Below are positions 12,057 through 34,810 of a stretch of DNA of 35,488 nt, in pieces. The position numbers and the translations under genes were made by a program. The DNA is taken from contig VBDZ01000161.1 of NCBI GenBank assembly GCA_005881215.1, positions 1-35,488 on the forward strand. The letters run 5' to 3'. Below the pieces are notes generated by a model. That model did not search any database and was not told where the DNA came from. It saw only the letters and a list, made by a program, of their open reading frames with translations. Source of the DNA: Chloroflexota bacterium. GTDB lineage: Bacteria; Chloroflexota; Dormibacteria; CF-121. Within the stretch, counting starts at the first letter, position 1; each line of letters opens with the position of its first letter.

Positions 12057-12677
12057 TTAGGTACCGAAGAGGCGATCGCCGTAGTCGCCCAGGCCGGGCA
12101 GGATGTATTTCTGGGCGTTCAGCTGGCGATCCCTCGCCGCGGCGAAGATCTGGACGTCCGGGTGGGCCGCCTCCAGCGCCTCGATCCCCTCGGGAGCCGC
12201 CACGACGCACACTAGGCGAACGCTTGCCGGCTTGTATTCCTTCATGATCTCGACCGCCTTGCGGGCGGTCCCGCCGGTGGCGAGCATGGGATCGAGGATC
12301 ATCACCACCTTGCCGTCGATATCGGGCGGGAGCTTGACGTAGTAACGGGAAGCGACGGCCGTCCGCTCGTCACGCTCGAGGCCGATATAACCGACCGTCA
12401 CGTGGGGCAGCAGCTGGAGAACCGGGCCGACCAGCCCCAGGCCGGCGCGCAGGATGGGGACCGCGACCACCCGGTCGGCGATGGCATGGCCGTCAGTCGT
12501 CTCCAGCGGCGTCTGCGTCTTGAGGACGCGGCTCCGGAGGTCGTGGGTCGCCTCGTAGAGCAGCAGCGTGATGATCTTGTCCGACGCTTCACGGAACTCG
12601 TCCGGTGTCGTCTCGCGGTCGCGTAGCCGGGTCAGGTAGTGCGCGACGAGCGGGTGGTCGACGACGTGGAGGCTCAT
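12057..12677 (-). CDS. upp: uracil phosphoribosyltransferase
   Basis: A 206-residue type I phosphoribosyltransferase that makes UMP from uracil and PRPP. Length and pattern match the family: RDRETTPDEFREASDKI near the N-terminus, VPILRAGLGLV, the PRPP-binding loop MILDPMLATGGT, and a C-terminal uracil-contact region ending YILPGLGDYGDRLFGT. The ATG at 12675-12677 overlaps the stop of the upstream truncated ydeI-like gene (ATGA). It acts directly downstream of uridine phosphorylase in the same operon, so uracil released from uridine can be converted to UMP. Confidence 0.95.
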   Translation of the reverse strand: MSLHVVDHPLVAHYLTRLRDRETTPDEFREASDKIITLLLYEATHDLRSRVLKTQTPLETTDGHAIADRVVAVPILRAGLGLVGPVLQLLPHVTVGYIGLERDERTAVASRYYVKLPPDIDGKVVMILDPMLATGGTARKAVEIMKEYKPASVRLVCVVAAPEGIEALEAAHPDVQIFAAARDRQLNAQKYILPGLGDYGDRLFGT

Positions 12678-13009
12678 GCCCCCTCCCTGACCCTCCCCCG
12701 CGAGCGGGGGAGGGAATTTGCCGCGCCTGCCCCCCGCGAGCGGGGGAGGGAATTCTCGGACCAGTTGCTCTTCGGCTTGCGCGGCGTGAAGCGGCACGCG
12801 TAGCTCGCCTCGTCGATGCGCTTCGTCAGGCCGTCGATCCAACCGTAGGCGAGCGCTTCTTCCACCGACTCGTCGTAAGAGATCCCCGACTTGCCGGACG
12901 CCTTCTTGTAGTAGACAACCCAGATTTCTTTCTTGTCGTTATGGTGTTTCACCAGCCAGCGCCGCCACTCGGCCGGCGTCCGCACCGTCAGCGTCTCGCC
13001 AAGGTCCAT
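12674..13009 (-). CDS. YdeI/OmpD-associated family protein, C-terminally truncated by repeats
   Basis: Residues 1-85 match the N-terminal half of YdeI/OmpD-associated (bacteriocin-protection) proteins: EWRRWLVKHH, EIWVVYYKK, SYDESVEEALAYGWIDG, KRIDEASYACRFTPRKPKSNW, cited here in part as RFTPRKPKSNW. Family members usually continue for about another 100 residues. Here residues 86-111 are encoded entirely by two copies of the GC-rich palindromic repeat (NSLPRSRG twice). The stop falls at the upp start (ATGA overlap). The ATG at 13009 abuts the uridine phosphorylase stop with no gap. The protein has probably lost function. An alternative is that it survives as a short form kept for translational coupling to upp. 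Confidence 0.75.
   Translation of the reverse strand: MDLGETLTVRTPAEWRRWLVKHHNDKKEIWVVYYKKASGKSGISYDESVEEALAYGWIDGLTKRIDEASYACRFTPRKPKSNWSENSLPRSRGAGAANSLPRSRGRVREGA
12679..12754. repeat. palindromic GC-rich repeat (REP-like), two copies
   Basis: Copy 1 contains a perfect 11-bp palindrome, CCCTCCCCCGC-GA-GCGGGGGAGGG (12691-12714), with flanking CCCTGA and AATT. Copy 2 (about 12729-12754) repeats the right part. The same element occurs at 13814, 22715, 23980 and 34742. Here it is translated as the C-terminus of the YdeI-like protein on the minus strand. Confidence 0.85.
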
Positions 13010-13765: not shown

Positions 13766-13813
13766 GCCGACACGGAGTTTAACGTGAACGCATCGACGGC
13801 GCATCGGCGCGAA

Positions 13814-13852
13814 CCCCCCACCCTGCCCTCCCCCACAAGGGGGGAGGAGATT
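13814..13852. repeat. palindromic GC-rich repeat (REP-like)
   Basis: One element: a CCCCCCACCCTG lead, then CCTCCCCC-ACAA-GGGGGGAGG. It occupies the gap between the lone TadE-like gene and the uridine phosphorylase gene. Its orientation on the plus strand is the same as in the other copies. Confidence 0.75.
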
Positions 13853-18843: not shown

Positions 18844-19008
18844 GGATTCGTTACCCGGCGCCGGGGACCGACCAAAGGACCCAGACGCCTACTGCAGATA
18901 ACGCAAACGGTAAGGGTCCGCAACTCGATTCCCGATCACGGCTCCTTACAGGTCCCGTTACGACTCGGGTCTCAACGGGTCGCGCGCAAATGAAGAAAAA
19001 CGAGCACG

Positions 19009-19058
19009 CGTTCGGGAACGAATGTTCCGTATTGCGGCAATTAGGACCGGCCTATAAA
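19009..19058 (+). promoter_or_regulatory. promoter and dyad operator of structured RNA copy 1
   Basis: CGTTCGGGAAC (19009-19019), then GAAC-GAAT-GTTC (19016-19027), four bases, then TTGCGG (19032-19037, -35 candidate) and TATAAA (19053-19058, -10 candidate). The predicted start is at about 19065, just before the first helix of the RNA. The block GAAC-N4-GTTY-N4-TTGCGG recurs at exactly the same spacing upstream of copy 2. The dyad resembles the Bacillus/actinobacterial LexA box (CGAACRNRYGTTYC) at all positions but the first. Confidence 0.55.
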
Positions 19059-19065
19059 GTCACCC

Positions 19066-19325
19066 CTGCGACCTGTCAGAAAGCCAGTTAGAGAAGGAAA
19101 CGACTCTAGTCGGTCGCTGACGAGGGGACCGCAAGGTTCCCACTCTCGGATCGTGAGGTCCGAGGGCCCGGCCCGCAAGGGCTGGGGAGTCGGTTGTCGC
19201 AAGACGACCGGTTCTGTCAGTGACGAAGGTCTAGCTCGCAAGGGCCGGACTGGGCGGCGGGATGAAGGCTCGCTGGGTAACACCGGTGAGTTGTAAACCG
19301 TAACGACGGGTCGCATTCTTTTTTC
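19066..19325 (+). ncRNA. unrecognised structured RNA, copy 1 (long form)
   Basis: Closed by a 10-bp helix, GCGACCTGTC (19068-19077) with GACGGGTCGC (19305-19314), one G-U. Inside are: a hairpin TTAGAG/CTCTAG with loop AAGGAAACGA (19088-19109); a 9-bp helix GTCGCTGAC/GTCAGTGAC (19113-19121 and 19216-19224) enclosing four hairpins of 7-8 bp, each with a GNRA loop (19124-19141, 19145-19164, 19167-19186, 19191-19210); a 10-bp hairpin with one mismatch and loop GCAA (19228-19251); and CTCGCTGG/CCGGTGAG with loop GTAACA (19269-19290). A T-run (19319-19324) follows. It does not match RNase P, tmRNA, SRP, 6S or common riboswitches as I know them. It could be a leader of the lipoprotein gene, but copy 2 argues against that. 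Confidence 0.8.
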
Positions 19326-19349: not shown

Positions 19350-20474
19350 ATGCGCCAGCGAGCCTTGCTTCTGTGGATCCTGGCTGCCTGGGCACTAGCC
19401 GGTTGTCAGGGCAACCCGACGTATGCCGGCTACCCGCCGATTCCCGGGCCGGCACCGGACACGGAGGTGGTCGCCGTCTCGCCAGAGATTGCGGCGGCCG
19501 ACCATCCGGTCTTCTATTACCGGGATGCGCAAAATCCCAACCGGCTGCTCGCCTATGACTGGAGCGGCACCCTGCGCGGATCCCTAGCGGTCTCGGCCTC
19601 CGAGTTCAGCGCCACGCCGTCCGCCGATGGCAGGTTTCTTCTGCTGATGGGCGCGCACCTGGTGAGCGGGGGGCAGGTGCTCGGCCGAGTGTCGCCGGGA
19701 ACCTGGGCGGGGGATGGGGTGCACCTGTGCACGTTCCTGAACCACCTTGGTGGGCCTGGCCAGCCCCGGACGAGGCAGCTCTCCGCCAATTCGTTCGAGG
19801 GTATCGATACTCCCGCAACCCTGTTTTATGAGTCGGTCGCCGGCGAAAGGCGCAGGCTGCTCGACTATGGCGAATTCGGGCCGCACGGCGGCCCCGCGGT
19901 GCTGGCGTGCAACGCGGCGAAAGACCGGGCCGTGATCGGCGGCAGCTTCGTCGGAAGTATCTCCGGGCTCGCGATGATTCGACTATCCGATGGCCACGCG
20001 ATCTCCCAACAACTGGGTGCGTCGCACCGCGGGCCGGAGGGGACCCTGGTGTCGCCCGACGCATCACTCCTTGCGCTAGGGAGCACGGGTGGGGTATCGA
20101 TGCCAGGTGGCGATGCGTTCACCGTCTTTCGAATACCGAGCAACGAAGTCGTTGCGCAGATTGCCGGCTCGGGAGCCGACGCGTTTTCGGCCGACGATAC
20201 GAAAGTGCTGACCGTCGAGGACGTCGGCGGGAGCAACGAACACCAGCAGTACCAGGTCATCGATCTGGCGACCGGGCGGTCGATCTGGAACGCCGTGCTG
20301 TCGCCGGGAACCGTGCTGACCCGGCCCGGGACCGGCGAGTTCCTGGTGGCGTCCCGCACACATGAGTTGAGCCGAACGCGAGTGAACAGCACCGATACCT
20401 TCGAAGACGTCTGGCTGGTGTCAGCGGATGGCTCGGCCCGGCTCCTGCTCAAGCACGCCGCGCCACTTCAATAA
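19350..20474 (+). CDS. lipoprotein with beta-propeller-like repeats, unknown function
   Basis: About 374 residues. The N-terminus is a lipoprotein signal (RQRALLLWILAAWALAGC, lipobox LAGC) followed by a Pro/Gly-rich linker (YPPIPGPAPD). The mature part has repeated beta-strand units with DGRFLLLMG, SPDASLLALG and FSADDTKVLTVED, as in WD40/YVTN-like propellers that report stored or displayed values. No catalytic motif is visible. Starts at ATG 19350 or TTG 19338 are both possible; neither has a well-spaced ribosome site. The gene begins 25 bases after the T-run of structured RNA copy 1, so transcription could read through from it. Confidence 0.75.
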   Translation: MRQRALLLWILAAWALAGCQGNPTYAGYPPIPGPAPDTEVVAVSPEIAAADHPVFYYRDAQNPNRLLAYDWSGTLRGSLAVSASEFSATPSADGRFLLLMGAHLVSGGQVLGRVSPGTWAGDGVHLCTFLNHLGGPGQPRTRQLSANSFEGIDTPATLFYESVAGERRRLLDYGEFGPHGGPAVLACNAAKDRAVIGGSFVGSISGLAMIRLSDGHAISQQLGASHRGPEGTLVSPDASLLALGSTGGVSMPGGDAFTVFRIPSNEVVAQIAGSGADAFSADDTKVLTVEDVGGSNEHQQYQVIDLATGRSIWNAVLSPGTVLTRPGTGEFLVASRTHELSRTRVNSTDTFEDVWLVSADGSARLLLKHAAPLQ

Positions 20475-21786: not shown

Positions 21787-22713
21787 ATGGAGCCCACCAA
21801 CTCCGGGACGTTCGAGACCCTGCTCAAGCGCGGGGAGCTGATCGAGTCGACCTCCGAGATGACCCCGGATTACCTGCGCGAGCTGAAGCACACGTTGATC
21901 GTCTCGGGCGACACGGAACTGATCTCGGCCCCCGCCTATTACCTGGCCGCCAAAAAGGCGCCCAGCGTCAATGCGTTCATGACCGGCATCGCCATCATCC
22001 AGGACGAGCTGGCCCACGCCCACATCGCCTTCCACATCCTCGAAGAGCTGGGCGAGAGCCAGGAGGCGCTGATCTTCAAGCGCGACCCCAAGGCGTTTCG
22101 CTATCCATACGCCTTCGACGTCCCGCTGGAAAGCTGGACCGAGCTGGTTGTAGCCAACGCGATGTACGACCAGGCTGGCTTCTGCCTGCTGGGTGACATC
22201 CACGAGCAGTGCTCCTACGGGCCCTGGAAACGGGGACTCGTGAAAGTCATGGCCGAGGAGAACTTTCACCTGCGCAACGGCCGCAACTGGTCGAAACGCA
22301 TCAGCCAGGCCGGCGGCGCCGCCAAAGAGGAACTGCAGCGCGCCATCGACTGGATGTTTCCCCTGACGGTCGAGTGGTTCGGCCTCCCGGACAACCTCAA
22401 GCAGCACAGTGCCCAGCTGGACTATCGGTTGAAAGGCCTGACCAACGACCAGTTGCGGCAGCAGTGGCTCTCGACCGTGGTGCCGTTCATGGAATCGATC
22501 GGCATCCGGGTGCCGGCCCACCAGGAAAACAGCCATTTCGTCCTGGACTATCCATTCCCGTGCACCTTCGACGCGGACGCGAAGCGGTGGGACTTCAAGG
22601 ATCCCTGCACCTGGGATGATGTGCTGGCTCGCTGGCGCGCCCGCGGCCCGCGGAACGCCGAGATGGTGGCCCTGTTCCAGGAGAGCTTCGCCAAGTTCCA
22701 GGTGCAGGTATGA
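21787..22713 (+). CDS. paaA: phenylacetyl-CoA epoxidase catalytic subunit PaaA
   Basis: A 308-residue ferritin-like di-iron protein. PaaA with PaaC oxidises the CoA-activated aromatic ring to a 1,2-epoxide. Iron-ligand motifs are visible: DELAHAHIAFHILEE (Glu74-x-x-His77) and MAEENFHLRNGRNW (Glu157/158, His161), with earlier Glu44 in SGDTELISAP. The C-terminal PTVEWFG-like region reads PLTVEWFGLPDN. The ATG at 21787 fits the family start. No ribosome site is obvious in the 16-base divergent gap. Its stop overlaps the next start (ATGA), starting a chain of overlapping genes paaA-paaD(N)-paaB-paaC-paaD(C). No reductase gene paaE is in the window. Confidence 0.92.
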   Translation: MEPTNSGTFETLLKRGELIESTSEMTPDYLRELKHTLIVSGDTELISAPAYYLAAKKAPSVNAFMTGIAIIQDELAHAHIAFHILEELGESQEALIFKRDPKAFRYPYAFDVPLESWTELVVANAMYDQAGFCLLGDIHEQCSYGPWKRGLVKVMAEENFHLRNGRNWSKRISQAGGAAKEELQRAIDWMFPLTVEWFGLPDNLKQHSAQLDYRLKGLTNDQLRQQWLSTVVPFMESIGIRVPAHQENSHFVLDYPFPCTFDADAKRWDFKDPCTWDDVLARWRARGPRNAEMVALFQESFAKFQVQV

Positions 22714-23063
22714 GCCCCCATCCTACCCTCCCCCGCAAGCGGGGGAGGGAAATTTCGCTCCAGGCCCGGGTCTGGTCGGCGCTGGCCGAGATCAACGACC
22801 CCGAGATGCCGGTCAGCCTGGTCGACCTCGGCATCGTCTACGGCATCGACGTGGCGGAGGGGATCGTGCGGATCCGGTTGACGTTCACCGCCATGGGCTG
22901 CCCGGCGAGCGACCTGCTCGTGGGGGATATCCGTGAGCGGATGCTCAGAGAACCCGGCGTCGATGACGTCGTCATCGAGGTGGTCTGGGATCCGCCCTGG
23001 TCGTCGGACCGGCTGACGCCGGAGGGTCGGGAGGCGTTGCGGTCCTGGGGTCTTTCGGTCTGA
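22710..23063 (+). CDS. paaD: PaaD N-terminal half: MIP18/DUF59 domain protein
   Basis: A 117-residue protein. Residues 1-14 (MSPHPTLPRKRGRE) are encoded by the palindromic repeat. Residues from about 17 on are a MIP18/DUF59 domain with EINDPEMPVSLVDLGIVYGI, cited in part as NDPEMPVSLVDLG, and MGCPASDLL, whose cysteine is the conserved Fe-S-related residue. It ends with WDPPWSSDRLTPEGREAL, which is specific to PaaD. PaaD is an Fe-S maturation factor needed for the epoxidase. In usual PaaD (about 160 residues) a zinc-ribbon follows this domain; here the protein stops, and the ribbon is a separate gene at 23976. The ATG overlaps the paaA stop. Confidence 0.9.
   Translation: MSPHPTLPRKRGREISLQARVWSALAEINDPEMPVSLVDLGIVYGIDVAEGIVRIRLTFTAMGCPASDLLVGDIRERMLREPGVDDVVIEVVWDPPWSSDRLTPEGREALRSWGLSV
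22715..22752. repeat. palindromic GC-rich repeat (REP-like) inside paaD(N)
   Basis: A perfect palindrome, CCCTCCCCCGC-AA-GCGGGGGAGGG (22726-22749), preceded by CCCCATCCTA and followed by AAAT. It lies immediately inside the start of paaD(N) and is translated as PHPTLPRKRGRE. Confidence 0.9.
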
Positions 23064-23287: not shown

Positions 23288-23979
23288 GTCTCTACTCGCT
23301 CGTCAAGAGCCTCGCCGACAACAAGCAGCTGCTCGGGATGCGCTACGCGGAGTGGTGCATCGCCGCGCCCAGCCTGGAGGCGGACATCGCCGCGGCGGCC
23401 ATGGGCCTCGACGACATCGGGCACAGTCGCGTGCTGTACGGATCGCTTCGCGAGCTCGGGACGCCCGATGGGATCGACGAGAGCAGTTATGCGAACGTCC
23501 CCTATCTCGACAAACCGTGGACCGATTGGGCCCAGTTCGTGGCCGCGAATGCGGTGCTGGACAGCGCCTTCACGCTGATGATCGAGGCGCTGGCGAACGG
23601 CAACGTCGAGGTGTTGCGCAGCCGCCTCAAGAAGATGTTGCAGGAAGAGCGCTACCACTTCCTGCATGGCCGAAGCTGGATGCGGGAGGCGAAGGCCCCG
23701 CCGGCGATCGACCGGGCGTGGCGCGAGTCGCTGGAATGGATCGGTCCCGAGGGTGCGGATGTCGACGAGCTGCATCGGGACGGCCGCCTCGCCTTCGATG
23801 TCCGCGAGCTGCGCCGGCTGCTGGCCGAGCGCGTCGAGAGCACAGCGCCGCCGGCCGAGATCGATTGGGCGAAATGGGACCGGATTCGGCGGCGCACCGA
23901 GCCGGGAGGCATCGACCAGGCGACGCTCGAGATGCTGCAGGGCCTGGCGGAGAAGCGGTACATGCCGGTGAGTTCATGA
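23260..23979 (+). CDS. paaC: phenylacetyl-CoA epoxidase subunit PaaC
   Basis: A 239-residue ferritin-like subunit that pairs with PaaA. Recognisable blocks are SLADNKQLLGMRYAEWC, APSLEADIAAAAMGLDDIGHSR (cited in part as LEADIAAAAMGLDDIGH), SLRELGTP, WAQFVAANAVLDSAF, and LQEERYHFLHGRSW (Glu-x-x-x-His). Family PaaC is structural and lacks a full iron site in E. coli; here several ligand-like residues (Glu40, Asp52, His55, Glu and His in EERYHF) remain, so the iron status is open. The start is GTG 23260, overlapping paaB by 28 bases; the family homology begins at about residue 9. The stop overlaps the next gene (ATGA). Confidence 0.88.
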   Translation: MGSGRVGELSLYSLVKSLADNKQLLGMRYAEWCIAAPSLEADIAAAAMGLDDIGHSRVLYGSLRELGTPDGIDESSYANVPYLDKPWTDWAQFVAANAVLDSAFTLMIEALANGNVEVLRSRLKKMLQEERYHFLHGRSWMREAKAPPAIDRAWRESLEWIGPEGADVDELHRDGRLAFDVRELRRLLAERVESTAPPAEIDWAKWDRIRRRTEPGGIDQATLEMLQGLAEKRYMPVSS

Positions 23980-24152
23980 CCCCCCACCCTGACCCTCTCC
24001 CGCAGGGGGGAAGGGAAGATCTCGGCAAGCCGCGCTGTCCGTTCTGCCAGGCGACGAACACCGAGGTGATCTCGCTCTTCGGCAGCCAGGTGATGACGAT
24101 GCAATGCCGGTGCCGGGCGTGCGGCAGTTTCTTCGAGGCCAGTAAATACTGA
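23976..24152 (+). CDS. PaaD C-terminal zinc-ribbon as a separate 58-residue protein
   Basis: Read by eye from ATG 23976, which overlaps the paaC TGA. Residues 1-15 (MTPHPDPLPQGGRED) are encoded by the palindromic repeat. Residues 20-58 hold CPFCQATNTEVISLFGSQV, then CRCRACGSFFEASKY. This matches the C-terminal ribbon of PaaD ('CP.CgS......S.FGST.Ck....C..C.epF..fK') with the four cysteines present. It is thus the missing half of the PaaD encoded at 22710. Both halves probably act together as the maturation factor. No further gene overlaps it; a new ribosome site precedes the methyltransferase. Confidence 0.85.
   Translation: MTPHPDPLPQGGREDLGKPRCPFCQATNTEVISLFGSQVMTMQCRCRACGSFFEASKY
23980..24018. 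repeat. palindromic GC-rich repeat (REP-like), diverged, inside the ribbon gene
   Basis: CCCCCCACCCTGACCCTC followed by TCCCGCAGGGGGGAAGGGAAG. It is the same element as at 22715 but with an imperfect right arm. It begins four bases after the ATG of the ribbon gene and is translated as PHPDPLPQGGRE. Confidence 0.75.
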
Positions 24153-24177: not shown

Positions 24178-25002
24178 ATGGCTGAGGGGACCGTCTTTGG
24201 GTGTTTTTCCATCGGGAGCGTGGCCGCGACCTATGACGAGATTTACGTGCCGCGGATCTTCATCCCCTGGGCGCGGCTCTTACTGGAACGGGCGGACCTA
24301 TCGCCGGGCGAATCCCTGCTCGACGTCGCGACCGGACCCGGCACCGTCGCCCGGCTGGCAGCCGAGCAGGTGGGTCCGCGGGGTCGCGTGCTCGGTACCG
24401 ATATCAGCGCCGCCATGATCGGGATCGCCCAGAAGAAGGCCATCGCCGGTGAGGCGGCGGCCATCGAGTACCTGGTCGCCCCGGCCGCCCCGCTCCCGGT
24501 GGCGGATGGGAGTTTTGACGTGGTCACCTGCCAGCAAGGGCTGCAATTCTTTCCCGATCGCCCGGCGGCGTTGAAGGAGATGCATCGCGCCCTGCGACAG
24601 GGTGGACTACTGGTCGCGGCCGTTTGGCGCGAAATCGCGCTGCAGCCGAGCTTTGCGGCCATCGATGGCGCGCTCCGGGAACGCCTCGGTCCGGACGCTG
24701 CCGAGCCCTATGGAGCGCCGTTCCGCGGACCGGGAAAGGCGCAGCTGCGCCAGGCGCTGGTTGACGCGGGCTTCAAAAATATCGCCGTCGACGAATACCG
24801 GCTGCCGCTCATCTACGAAGCCGGAATCGCGCAGGCGCTGGCGACGCTGGCCGCCTCGCCGGTGGCGACGACGGTGGCGGGGCTGACCGACGACGAGCGG
24901 GCTCGGCTGTGGGAGGCCGGCCGGCGGCGGCTCGAACCGCTGCTGGTAGACGGCGCGGTCAGCACCGAAATGGTGTCGCACCTGGCGGTAGCGACGACTT
25001 AA
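24178..25002 (+). CDS. class I SAM-dependent methyltransferase, UbiE-like
   Basis: A 274-residue methyltransferase. Motif I is LLDVATGPGTVARLA (about 48-62), motif II acidic LGTDISAAMI, and motif post-II/III is DGSFDVVTCQQGLQFFPD, cited in part as FDVVTCQQGLQFF. HRALRQGGLLVAAVW fills motif IV. This order is typical of the UbiE/COQ5-like small-molecule or ubiquinone-type group. The substrate is unknown. ATG 24178 has a very strong ribosome site (GGAGGAGGGG, about 24165-24174), so it may be translated independently of the paa genes 25 bases upstream. It ends just before structured RNA copy 2. Confidence 0.88.
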   Translation: MAEGTVFGCFSIGSVAATYDEIYVPRIFIPWARLLLERADLSPGESLLDVATGPGTVARLAAEQVGPRGRVLGTDISAAMIGIAQKKAIAGEAAAIEYLVAPAAPLPVADGSFDVVTCQQGLQFFPDRPAALKEMHRALRQGGLLVAAVWREIALQPSFAAIDGALRERLGPDAAEPYGAPFRGPGKAQLRQALVDAGFKNIAVDEYRLPLIYEAGIAQALATLAASPVATTVAGLTDDERARLWEAGRRRLEPLLVDGAVSTEMVSHLAVATT

Positions 25003-25013
25003 TAGCGATCATC

Positions 25014-25066
25014 CGTTTGCGAACCGCAGTTTGGAGTTGCGGCCCGATTAGCTTGGCCCTTACGCT
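25014..25066 (+). promoter_or_regulatory. promoter and dyad operator of structured RNA copy 2
   Basis: CGTTTGCGAAC (25014-25024), GAAC-CGCA-GTTT (25021-25032), four bases, then TTGCGG (25037-25042). These align base for base, without gaps, with 19009-19037 upstream of copy 1. ATTAG follows in both. A weak -10 candidate TACGCT (25061-25066) would give a start at about 25073, at the first base pair of the RNA. Confidence 0.5.
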
Positions 25067-25071
25067 TACGC

Positions 25072-25260
25072 CCGCGACCTGTCAGAAAGCCAGCCGATGA
25101 AGGAAACGACATCGGTAGGCCCCCGAACCCCGGGCCCGCAAGGACTCGGTTAGTACGGAGCGAAGGTCCTCTCGGAAACGGGTGGACTGGGCGGCGGTAA
25201 GGACTCGTTGGGTCACACCGGCGGGTTATCAACCGTAACGACGGGTCGCTTCAACTTTCT
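25072..25260 (+). ncRNA. unrecognised structured RNA, copy 2 (short form)
   Basis: Closing helix GCGACCTGTC (25074-25083) with GACGGGTCGC (25240-25249), identical to copy 1. Hairpin CCGATG/CATCGG (25094-25115) carries the same ten-base loop AAGGAAACGA, although every stem base but the inner pair region differs from copy 1. CCGGGCCC-GCAA-GGACTCGG (25130-25149) matches one GNRA hairpin of copy 1. GGTCCTCTCG-GAAA-CGGGTGGACT (25165-25188) matches the 10-bp hairpin, with the mismatch in the same place. CTCGTTGG-GTCACA-CCGGCGGG (25204-25225) matches the last. The three extra hairpins of copy 1 are absent. It fills the gap between two converging gene ends. Confidence 0.8.
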
Positions 25261-25309
25261 GCAGGTTCTGCCGGCTTTGCCTTCCCAAGCTCGGCAGACC
25301 TGTGCGTCG

Positions 25310-26221
25310 CTAGTTCTTGAGCTCGGTGGGGATGATCGTGCGCCTGAGCAGCTCGGTGCCGCGGAGCAGCTGGGCTTCGGCGGGAATACCGACCGGCCAG
25401 TCGGTGAGGAAGTGCTGGAGATCGTCCACGCCCTTCATCGGGTGACTGGCAAGACTGAACACGACATCCTCTTTCTGCAGTCCGGCGTGCTGAGCTGGCC
25501 CGTTGGGGTCGACATGGACGACCCGGACGCCGCTTTCCTGGTCCAGATGGTAGTAACGAGTGATGCGGCGGTGGATCGGCCACGACTCGCCGGTGATGCC
25601 CAGGTAGGAGCGGATCACCCGGCCGTCGCGGATCAGCAGGGATACCACGCGTTGGGCGGTGTTACTCGGGACGGCGAAACAGATACCCTGCGCCATGGCG
25701 ATGATGGCGGTGTTGATGCCGACCACCTGGCCCCGGGTGTCCACCAGCGGCCCACCCGAGTTGCCGGGGTTGAGCGCGGCGTCGGTCTGAATGATGTTCT
25801 CGATGGTCCGGCCGCTCTGGGCCCGCATGGTCCGGCCCAGGGCGCTTACGACGCCGGTCGTCACCGTCGACTGAAACCCAAACGGATGGCCGATCGCGAC
25901 CACCAGCTGGCCGACGCGAAGCTGCCCGGAATCGCCAAGCCGGGCATGGGGAAGGCCGGTGCCGGTCGCCCGCAAGACCGCCAGGTCCGTATGCGGATCC
26001 TTGCCGACCAGGTCCGCCTTCAGCGTCGTACCATCGCGGAGGGTGAGCTCGTACGCCTTGACCGCGCTAGCCACATGGCTGTTGGTGAGGGCGTAGCCGT
26101 CCGGCGTGATCAGCATGCCGGTGCCGACGCCGCTGACGCCGACGACCGCCGGCCCCACGGTGTCGACCACCGAAATCACCGCCCGCGAGTAGGCGTCAAG
26201 CAGCTCGAGGTCAGAGACCAT
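25310..26221 (-). CDS. HtrA/DegP-like trypsin-fold serine protease with PDZ domain
   Basis: About 303 residues. The catalytic triad is complete: His49 in LTNSHV, Asp79 in PHTDLAVL, and Ser155 in PGNSGGPLV. A single PDZ-like domain follows (YLGITGE, then GVRVVHVDPNGPAQHAGLQKEDVV, cited in part as DPNGPAQHAGLQKED). No signal peptide or membrane anchor is visible before the protease domain, which is unusual for HtrA proteins and suggests a cytoplasmic or non-classically located enzyme. I prefer ATG 26221 (VSDLELLDAYS); a TTG at 26263 would add 14 polar residues and still no anchor. It is divergent from the small gene at 26281. Confidence 0.87.
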   Translation of the reverse strand: MVSDLELLDAYSRAVISVVDTVGPAVVGVSGVGTGMLITPDGYALTNSHVASAVKAYELTLRDGTTLKADLVGKDPHTDLAVLRATGTGLPHARLGDSGQLRVGQLVVAIGHPFGFQSTVTTGVVSALGRTMRAQSGRTIENIIQTDAALNPGNSGGPLVDTRGQVVGINTAIIAMAQGICFAVPSNTAQRVVSLLIRDGRVIRSYLGITGESWPIHRRITRYYHLDQESGVRVVHVDPNGPAQHAGLQKEDVVFSLASHPMKGVDDLQHFLTDWPVGIPAEAQLLRGTELLRRTIIPTELKN

Positions 26222-26280
26222 TTGCCGGGGGTGGTACCCATTCCAGGAGTACCTAAACAACAACCTATGATTGGTTGCTG

Positions 26281-32753: not shown

Positions 32754-33021
32754 GATCGCGCTAGACGGGGAGTTAGCGGTGCCCTGTACCCGCAATCCGC
32801 TACAGCGGGGTCGAATTCCCCTTTGAGGGGTGCGCTGTCCGGAGTGGCGTTTCGTGTGACTGCGTTGATGGCCTGGTCCTGCGCGACCTGGTTCCGTGAA
32901 CCCCGTCAGGTCCGGAAGGAAGCAGCGGTAAGCGGGGTGCCGGGGGCGCCGCAGCCCACCGGGCCTGAGTGGTCCGCGTTGTGTCCCCGGGCGGCGCCAC
33001 AACGAGGAGGGGTGCGCGGTC
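32754..33021 (+). ncRNA. ffs: signal recognition particle RNA, large bacterial type with Alu domain
   Basis: About 268 nt. The 5' part carries the Alu-domain block AGCGGTGCCCTGTACCCGCA (20 bases shown, about 32774-32793), as in the Bacillus large SRP RNA. The apical domain IV hairpin has GTCAGGTCCGGAAGGAAGCA (about 32904-32923), which includes the symmetric Ffh-binding loop with GGAAGCAGC and GTCAGGTCCGG. The ends pair: GATCGCGC (32754-32761) with GCGCGGTC (33014-33021), with one G-U pair, which sets the limits. The RNA scaffolds Ffh for co-translational membrane targeting. The large form suits the predicted Gram-positive or Chloroflexota-like host. Confidence 0.95.
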
Positions 33022-34705: not shown

Positions 34706-34741
34706 ATGAGTAGATCGCAAAAATGGGGTCGCTCGTGCGAT

Positions 34742-34810
34742 ACCCCCTCCCCGACCCTCCCCACAAGGGGGAGGGAGAGGCCCCGCCTTCCCCACAAGGG
34801 GGGAGGGATT
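34742..34810. repeat. palindromic GC-rich repeat (REP-like), two copies
   Basis: CCCTCCCC-ACAA-GGGGGAGGG at about 34755-34776 and CTTCCCC-ACAA-GGGGGGAGGG at about 34787-34808, each with a CCCC-rich lead. They fill the gap between the flavoprotein stop (34810) and the start region of the PD-(D/E)XK-like gene. Confidence 0.8.

Follow-up and report, generated by a model that had tools for sequence, protein, structure and literature searches.

Does an RNA that stands alone between two converging genes belong to one of its neighbours, or is it a gene in its own right? The question is raised by copy 2 of a repeated RNA in the window, by which we mean the whole stretch of 35,488 nt of Chloroflexota DNA analysed here (contig C27 of genome G000). 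Copy 2 lies in a 307-nt gap (25003-25309) bounded by the ends of a methyltransferase ORF and of an HtrA-like ORF on the opposite strand (Table 1), and no plausible gene start lies inside this gap. The original prediction, made from the letters of the window, noted that no gene starts downstream of the RNA on either strand; it had argued from this placement that a leader role was unlikely for copy 2 and that the RNA should be trans-acting or structural.

Table 1. Features of the window, with positions counted along its whole length.
Feature	Position	Strand	Remarks
Copy 1: LexA-like box A, CGAGCACGCGTTCG	19001..19014	+	
Copy 1: LexA-like box B, GGAACGAATGTTCC	19015..19028	+	
Copy 1: -35 TTGCGG	19032..19037	+	
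Copy 1: -10 TAAAGT	19055..19060	+	spacing 17
Copy 1 (type 1) RNA core, 247 nt	19068..19314	+	covariance model 170.1 bits; covarying fold
Extended P4 domain of type 1, four GNRA-capped hairpins	19113..19224	+	
Terminator-like U-run immediately following P1 in copy 1	19315..19324	+	U-rich in 12/12 full type-1 copies
Lipoprotein-like ORF after copy 1	19350..20474	+	beside type 1 solely in the window's genome among surveyed loci
Methyltransferase gene	24178..25002	+	upstream of copy 2; Pfam Ubie_methyltran/Methyltransf_11
Copy 2: LexA-like box A	25006..25019	+	
Copy 2: LexA-like box B, CGAACCGCAGTTTG	25020..25033	+	
Copy 2: -35 TTGCGG	25037..25042	+	3 nt after box B
Copy 2: -10 TACGCT	25061..25066	+	spacing 18; 7 nt before core
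Copy 2 (type 2) RNA core, 176 nt	25074..25249	+	covariance model 199.8 bits; 55-pair structure with covariation
U-rich tail after P1 of copy 2	25250..25259	+	TTCA invariant in 17/17 type-2 copies
3' hairpin, conserved, C-rich loop GCCUUCCC	25262..25302	+	94.3% of cells paired; 16/17 type-2 loci
HtrA-like protease gene	25310..26263	-	convergent with copy 2; Pfam Trypsin_2 and PDZ
G/C-rich repeat copies	12674-12715, 13809-13850, 22709-22750, 23975-24016, 34737-34778		

Two paralogous RNAs in one Chloroflexi family

Copy 2 is, as originally proposed, a real second copy of the RNA at copy 1: the ends of the two pair at 77% and 87% identity in a repeat search, and a single covariance model detects both. 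The limits first given to copy 2 (25072-25260) come close to the conserved core plus its U-rich tail, with the hairpin reaching to about 25302. Folded alone, copy 2 gives z = -3.1 and copy 1 z = -7.8. We conclude that copies 1 and 2 are most likely paralogous genes for a structured non-coding RNA whose family Rfam 15 does not contain, and refer to their respective homologues as type 1 and type 2.

DNA and covariance-model searches found the family in 18 of 61 relatives, 18 of 110 genomes of the class and 9 of 400 genomes of the phylum. Within the reach of the covariance model, beyond which more distant homologues may exist, every match falls in one Chloroflexi family (four genera), and all 18 listed genomes of that family have a match. 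There were 33 matches in total, two in each of 15 genomes and one in each of the other three, with at most one of each type per genome; complete copies measure 175-180 nt (type 2) or 247-248 nt (type 1). G004, G009 and G012 gave no type-1 match, and the last of these retains the type-1 promoter only, at a contig end. Among the named stretches bearing an exact 20-mer of the RNA, 24 of 25 are soil MAGs of Chloroflexi; the exact match in L052 (Caccousia) was dismissed as chance, being an orphan that scores 12.3 bits (E 0.88) with the covariance model. The 20-mer had no match in viral contigs, nor did the copy-2 core in plasmid and phage collections.

Neither window copy matches any of the 4227 families of Rfam 15 at gathering or permissive thresholds, the few hits obtained being off both cores on their strand or far under the gathering score, and six loci with divergent homologues gave no Rfam match either. 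The ornate RNAs raiA, OLE, ROOL and GOLLD are included in Rfam 15, and none of their models matched. Identity with RNase P RNA (RF00010) was rejected: its model has no match at the RNA loci, a normal RNase P RNA is present elsewhere (G000:C1), and 17 of the 18 family genomes have a normal one. Identity with 6S RNA (RF00013) was likewise rejected, since no covariance-model match was obtained and the fold is branched, not a rod. A search of the 18 family genomes for 6S RNA at E<=0.1 returned no match. Weak 6S-like matches below the Rfam cut-off were seen in G020, G023, G026, G030, G031 and G034 (six other genomes of the class; 41 genomes searched), none of them within the RNA's own family. The part of the literature covered on non-coding and structured RNAs of Chloroflexi, on LexA motifs and LexA-linked sRNAs, on the ornate RNAs and on C-rich sRNAs contained nothing recognisable as the window RNA.

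A conserved fold with GNRA-capped hairpins

The structure was derived from an alignment of 29 full-length copies (17 type 2, 12 type 1) of the 33 matches. Left out were both copies of G006 (a 117-nt type 1 that misses an internal part and a type-2 fragment at a contig edge) and the type-1 copies of G011 and G015, both cut by contig ends. In the model P1 closes the molecule and a short P2 encloses P3, P4 and P5, P2 to P5 making up a three-way domain that is followed by a P6/P7 arm. Of the 1595 base-pair cells, 98.8% pair across the 29 homologues, compared with 26-46% in slid controls. Both-sided changes occur in 16 pairs, against a shuffle mean of 9.8, and in 128 cells, against 47 in shuffles; none of 500 shuffles reached either value. 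Covariation between the two types is strong in P3 and P4; P2 and P6 are invariant, so neither helix can yield a covariation signal. On comparative grounds the predicted fold is well supported.

All hairpins except P7 carry a GNRA cap: the loops of P3, P4a and P5 are of this kind in 29/29 copies, as are all four hairpin loops in the P4 arm of type 1 in 12/12. These caps suggest tertiary docking or protein binding. One type-1 copy, L185:3272-3388 (G006:C201), is just 117 nt long and lacks the P4 arm and most of P5, with promoter and tail intact; it reflects either a genuine loss of internal sequence or a collapse during assembly.

The hairpin that follows the U-rich tail is probably the end of the type-2 RNA. 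It is conserved, with weak covariation (one both-sided change only), and has no U-run. Its loop CCUUCCC is invariant in the 16 aligned loci of 17, L019 being left out because it has no alignable hairpin. Shine-Dalgarno sequences of the form GGGAGGG were seen before BNR genes (described below), and by complementarity the loop GCCUUCCC could pair with them.

A shared promoter and putative double-box operator

Both RNAs share one operator and promoter arrangement, which the original argument on copy 2 had not seen. In 29/29 copies a TTGC -35 is followed after 17-18 nt by a TAnnnT -10 and after a further 6-7 nt by the core. Two abutting 14-nt dyads lie upstream of the -35 in 29/29, at about -67 to -54 (box A) and -53 to -40 (box B), with a constant 3 nt separating box B from the -35 in all 29 promoters. 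Both dyads are GAAC-N4-GTTC-like and resemble CGAAC-N4-GTTYG; in type 1 the outer bases of box B differ, reading GTTCC, not GTTCG. The wider -35 element GTTCCGTATTGCGG, searched with 2 mismatches, was mostly scattered (10 sites versus 5 in controls in G000, 21 versus 11 in G003).

Downstream genes: companions or leaders' targets?

The homologues allow the placement argument to be examined with gene calls that are GC3-based predictions. The neighbour survey was made without G006, and that of downstream genes also without the two cut type-1 copies, which gives 17 type-2 and 12 type-1 loci. In all but one of the 17 type-2 loci (16) a PaaC gene is found upstream in the same orientation, sometimes with other genes between; the exception, L156, begins at the edge of a contig. 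A secreted BNR-type gene, homologous between loci, comes next on the same strand in 13 of the 17 (11 of subfamily A and 2 of subfamily B, a relative at about 30%); the Pfam BNR matches of these genes are below curated cut-offs. Elsewhere type 2 is followed by a non-homologous BNR-like gene (L149), by a gene for a 168-aa protein and then a BNR gene (L152), or by a LysE-like gene, identified by reading of the sequence (L147). In the window there is no BNR gene after copy 2 and the convergent HtrA gene takes its place; copy 2 thus faces HtrA because the BNR-type gene is missing.

The original prediction had stated that it would be refuted if homologues regularly preceded the same kind of gene, and, taken literally, this is what type 2 presents. 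Between the RNA and the BNR gene lies a promoter-like element, CTTGTTTTCCRAAmCTTAATcGGCTAtgGTC, found in 10 of 13 loci by motif and in three, divergent, by eye. At L152, where gene and RNA are apart, the element precedes the BNR gene and is some 600 nt away from the RNA. Both the element and the gene are missing from the window and L147, where the RNA is intact (199.8 and 199.9 bits), and the RNA-to-BNR gap varies from 87 to 259 nt and is unconserved apart from the element. As a conserved promoter-like element thus belongs to the BNR gene and accompanies it at L152, the RNA is still to be regarded as its own unit, and the data favour separate transcription units for the type-2 RNA and the BNR gene.

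The surroundings of type 1 are different in kind. The downstream gene is on the same strand in 7 of 12 loci and on the opposite strand in 5, and is not constant; in none of the 12 does a BNR gene follow, despite the same core. Copy 1 does precede a lipoprotein-like ORF on the same strand, as had been noticed, and among the surveyed type-1 loci this is true of the window only. Type 1 is beside TadE1 in 13 of 14 loci, and at L150:14560-14806 (G016:C27), the sole such genome, it is inverted relative to its TadE neighbour, which is further evidence that type 1 is independent of its neighbours. A cis-leader or riboswitch would be expected to precede one constant gene family within a single transcript; type 1 has no constant downstream gene, and the BNR gene after type 2 has a promoter-like element of its own.

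The original conclusion is thus supported by the BNR gene's own promoter-like element and the varied neighbours of type 1, but the argument by which it was reached proves weaker than it had seemed. Most likely copy 2 is an independent gene and not the leader of a neighbour, and judging from promoters, fold and synteny together we consider it highly probable that the RNA is an independent transcription unit. All known copies come from a single bacterial family, so that the evidence from synteny and that from conservation partly overlap.

Resemblance of the operator to LexA boxes

A GAAC-N4-GTTC sequence is described as the LexA motif of Gram-positive bacteria (PMC3323433). We found lexA in 10 of 13 family genomes searched, with two to three CGAAC-N4-GTTYG boxes upstream in 10/10, and built a matrix from boxes of lexA promoters only (8 distinct boxes). 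Scanned over 264 kb (20 loci of relatives, including the cut type-1 loci L160 and L162 and excluding the window), this matrix placed its top 29 tandem sites in the 29 RNA promoters present there, with scores of 18.6-26.3 against 12.8 for the next-best site. Because these promoters are alike by descent they are not independent, and the two diverged paralogues in the window provide a fairer test. Their promoters took tandem ranks 1 and 2, and 4 of the window's best 8 single sites (35,475 positions) fell inside them. With column-permuted matrices, 0 of 1000 reached four of the top eight and 2 of 1000 put both promoters in the tandem top two. The RNA promoters therefore contain LexA-type boxes by matrix scan and permutation. 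The window's highest-scoring single LexA-like site, CGAACGGGTGTTTG (2826-2839), is flanked by genes for a MalK-type ABC ATPase (-) and a HAD hydrolase (+).

Other boxes in the window's own genome precede imuA-imuB and an HRQ1-type helicase. In the clearest own-genome promoters (L057, L058, L072) the box is between -35 and -10, whereas in the RNA promoters it is upstream of the -35, a difference that makes an activator or a LexA-like regulator possible. Across the 18 genomes the exact frame GTTYGNRAAC-N5-TTY-N4-TTG occurs only in RNA promoters, including the type-1 promoter of G012 cut off by a contig end, and in G000:C63, G001:C233 and G003:C9; it was not found before lexA or imuA. Taking box sequence and position together, we give about even weight to LexA-type control of both RNA genes.

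A third non-coding stretch and other features

The three additional sites with the same operator-promoter frame are L173:518 (G000:C63), L182:1864 (G001:C233) and L183:1658 (G003:C9). They precede another conserved non-coding stretch, the third with this frame, which is some 230 nt long; G000 and G001 are 53-88% identical over 40-column windows of it, and in G003 it is much shorter. It folds (z -4.1 and -3.0), has no Rfam match, and in G000 and G001 ends with a GGGTTGC...GCARCCC hairpin followed by ATCCCTCTA. It is just upstream of a ligD-type gene in G000 and faces opposite-strand ORFs in G001 and G003. The covariance model of the RNA family does not find it: the highest score at the three loci is 13.4 bits (E 0.03), and that on the opposite strand.

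The window also contains a large bacterial SRP RNA (RF01854) at 32756-33019 (+), with 166.5 bits, and five scattered copies of a short G/C-rich repeat, CCCTCCCC..GGGGGAGGG.

Discussion

The explanation we favour, with roughly even confidence, is a pair of trans-acting structured RNAs, each with its own promoter and both under a LexA-type (DNA-damage) operator. Each gene would produce a compact fold that P1 closes. The two abutting boxes just upstream of the -35 would be bound by LexA or a similar regulator, and the levels of both RNAs would change with DNA damage. The RNA would act in trans as a folded scaffold or RNP, to which type 1 would add its four-hairpin arm and type 2 may add the C-rich loop able to pair with Shine-Dalgarno sequences. 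More tentatively, and at somewhat less than even confidence, the LexA double operator may drive a small non-coding SOS regulon, made up of the compact, GNRA-rich RNA pair and the third non-coding transcript, throughout this one Chloroflexi family, and so bring a structured RNA machine into play when DNA is damaged.

The same independent, structured, trans-acting RNAs might instead be controlled by a different regulator, such as an activator in contact with the -35, and have no relation to DNA damage, a reading we take seriously without thinking it probable. The fixed 3-nt distance of box B from the -35 would suit an activator, the clearest own-genome LexA boxes occupy a different position, and the exact frame is restricted to the RNAs and the three third-transcript sites; yet it was a matrix made from lexA boxes alone that singled out the RNA promoters. 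We regard it as improbable that type 2 acts in cis on the BNR-type gene downstream, as its leader or attenuator, and has been orphaned in the window genome. The BNR gene is its usual same-strand successor, and the hairpin after P1 could be a switch, but the gene keeps a promoter-like element of its own even when displaced, the gap is variable, type 1 with the same core never precedes such a gene, and the RNA is intact where the BNR gene is not adjacent (the window and G003).

That type 1 leads a neighbouring Paa-like or lipoprotein gene is very improbable: in 4 of 12 loci it is followed on the same strand, 27-489 nt away, by a PaaA-like ORF, and in the window by a lipoprotein gene, but an opposite-strand gene comes next in almost half the loci, the downstream genes are of several unrelated kinds, and a U-run follows P1. 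That one of the known families (6S, RNase P, raiA or another ornate RNA) includes this RNA as a divergent branch is extremely unlikely. Its size and complexity would fit, and the lack of a 6S match in the family's genomes makes a 6S-like role formally possible; Rfam models fail even at permissive thresholds, nearly every family genome has a normal RNase P RNA, and the branched fold is not the 6S rod.

The window contains two paralogues of a structured RNA family that Rfam 15 lacks, and most genomes of a family of soil Chloroflexi have such a pair with one kind of control region. If the operator is LexA's, a compact structured RNA would be tied to the DNA-damage response, and an inducer together with a lexA mutant would offer a direct handle on the role of such RNAs. 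The locus also teaches that a neighbour gene missing from one genome can make evidence from placement seem stronger than it is.

Among known RNAs, 6S RNA is of similar length and occurs as two paralogues in some bacteria, but it is a bulged rod, in contrast to the multibranched window RNA, which its covariance model does not match. The type-2 hairpin resembles C-rich-loop sRNAs, such as the UCCC-motif sRNAs of S. aureus and Listeria, in that it exposes a loop complementary to G-rich Shine-Dalgarno sequences; here the loop accompanies a large structured core, is absent from type 1 and from L019, and its pairing is predicted. The operators share the GAAC-N4-GTTC type of box with LexA/SOS promoters (PMC3323433), and score with a matrix from these genomes' own lexA promoters, but differ in having two abutting boxes with a 14-nt period upstream of the -35 and an RNA as product. 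Finally, raiA, OLE, ROOL and GOLLD are described as highly structured bacterial RNAs of poorly understood function (PMC12286853), and the window RNAs resemble them in being highly structured and stand-alone; they differ in being 176-247 nt long and a chromosomal pair of one Chloroflexi family with a LexA-like operator.
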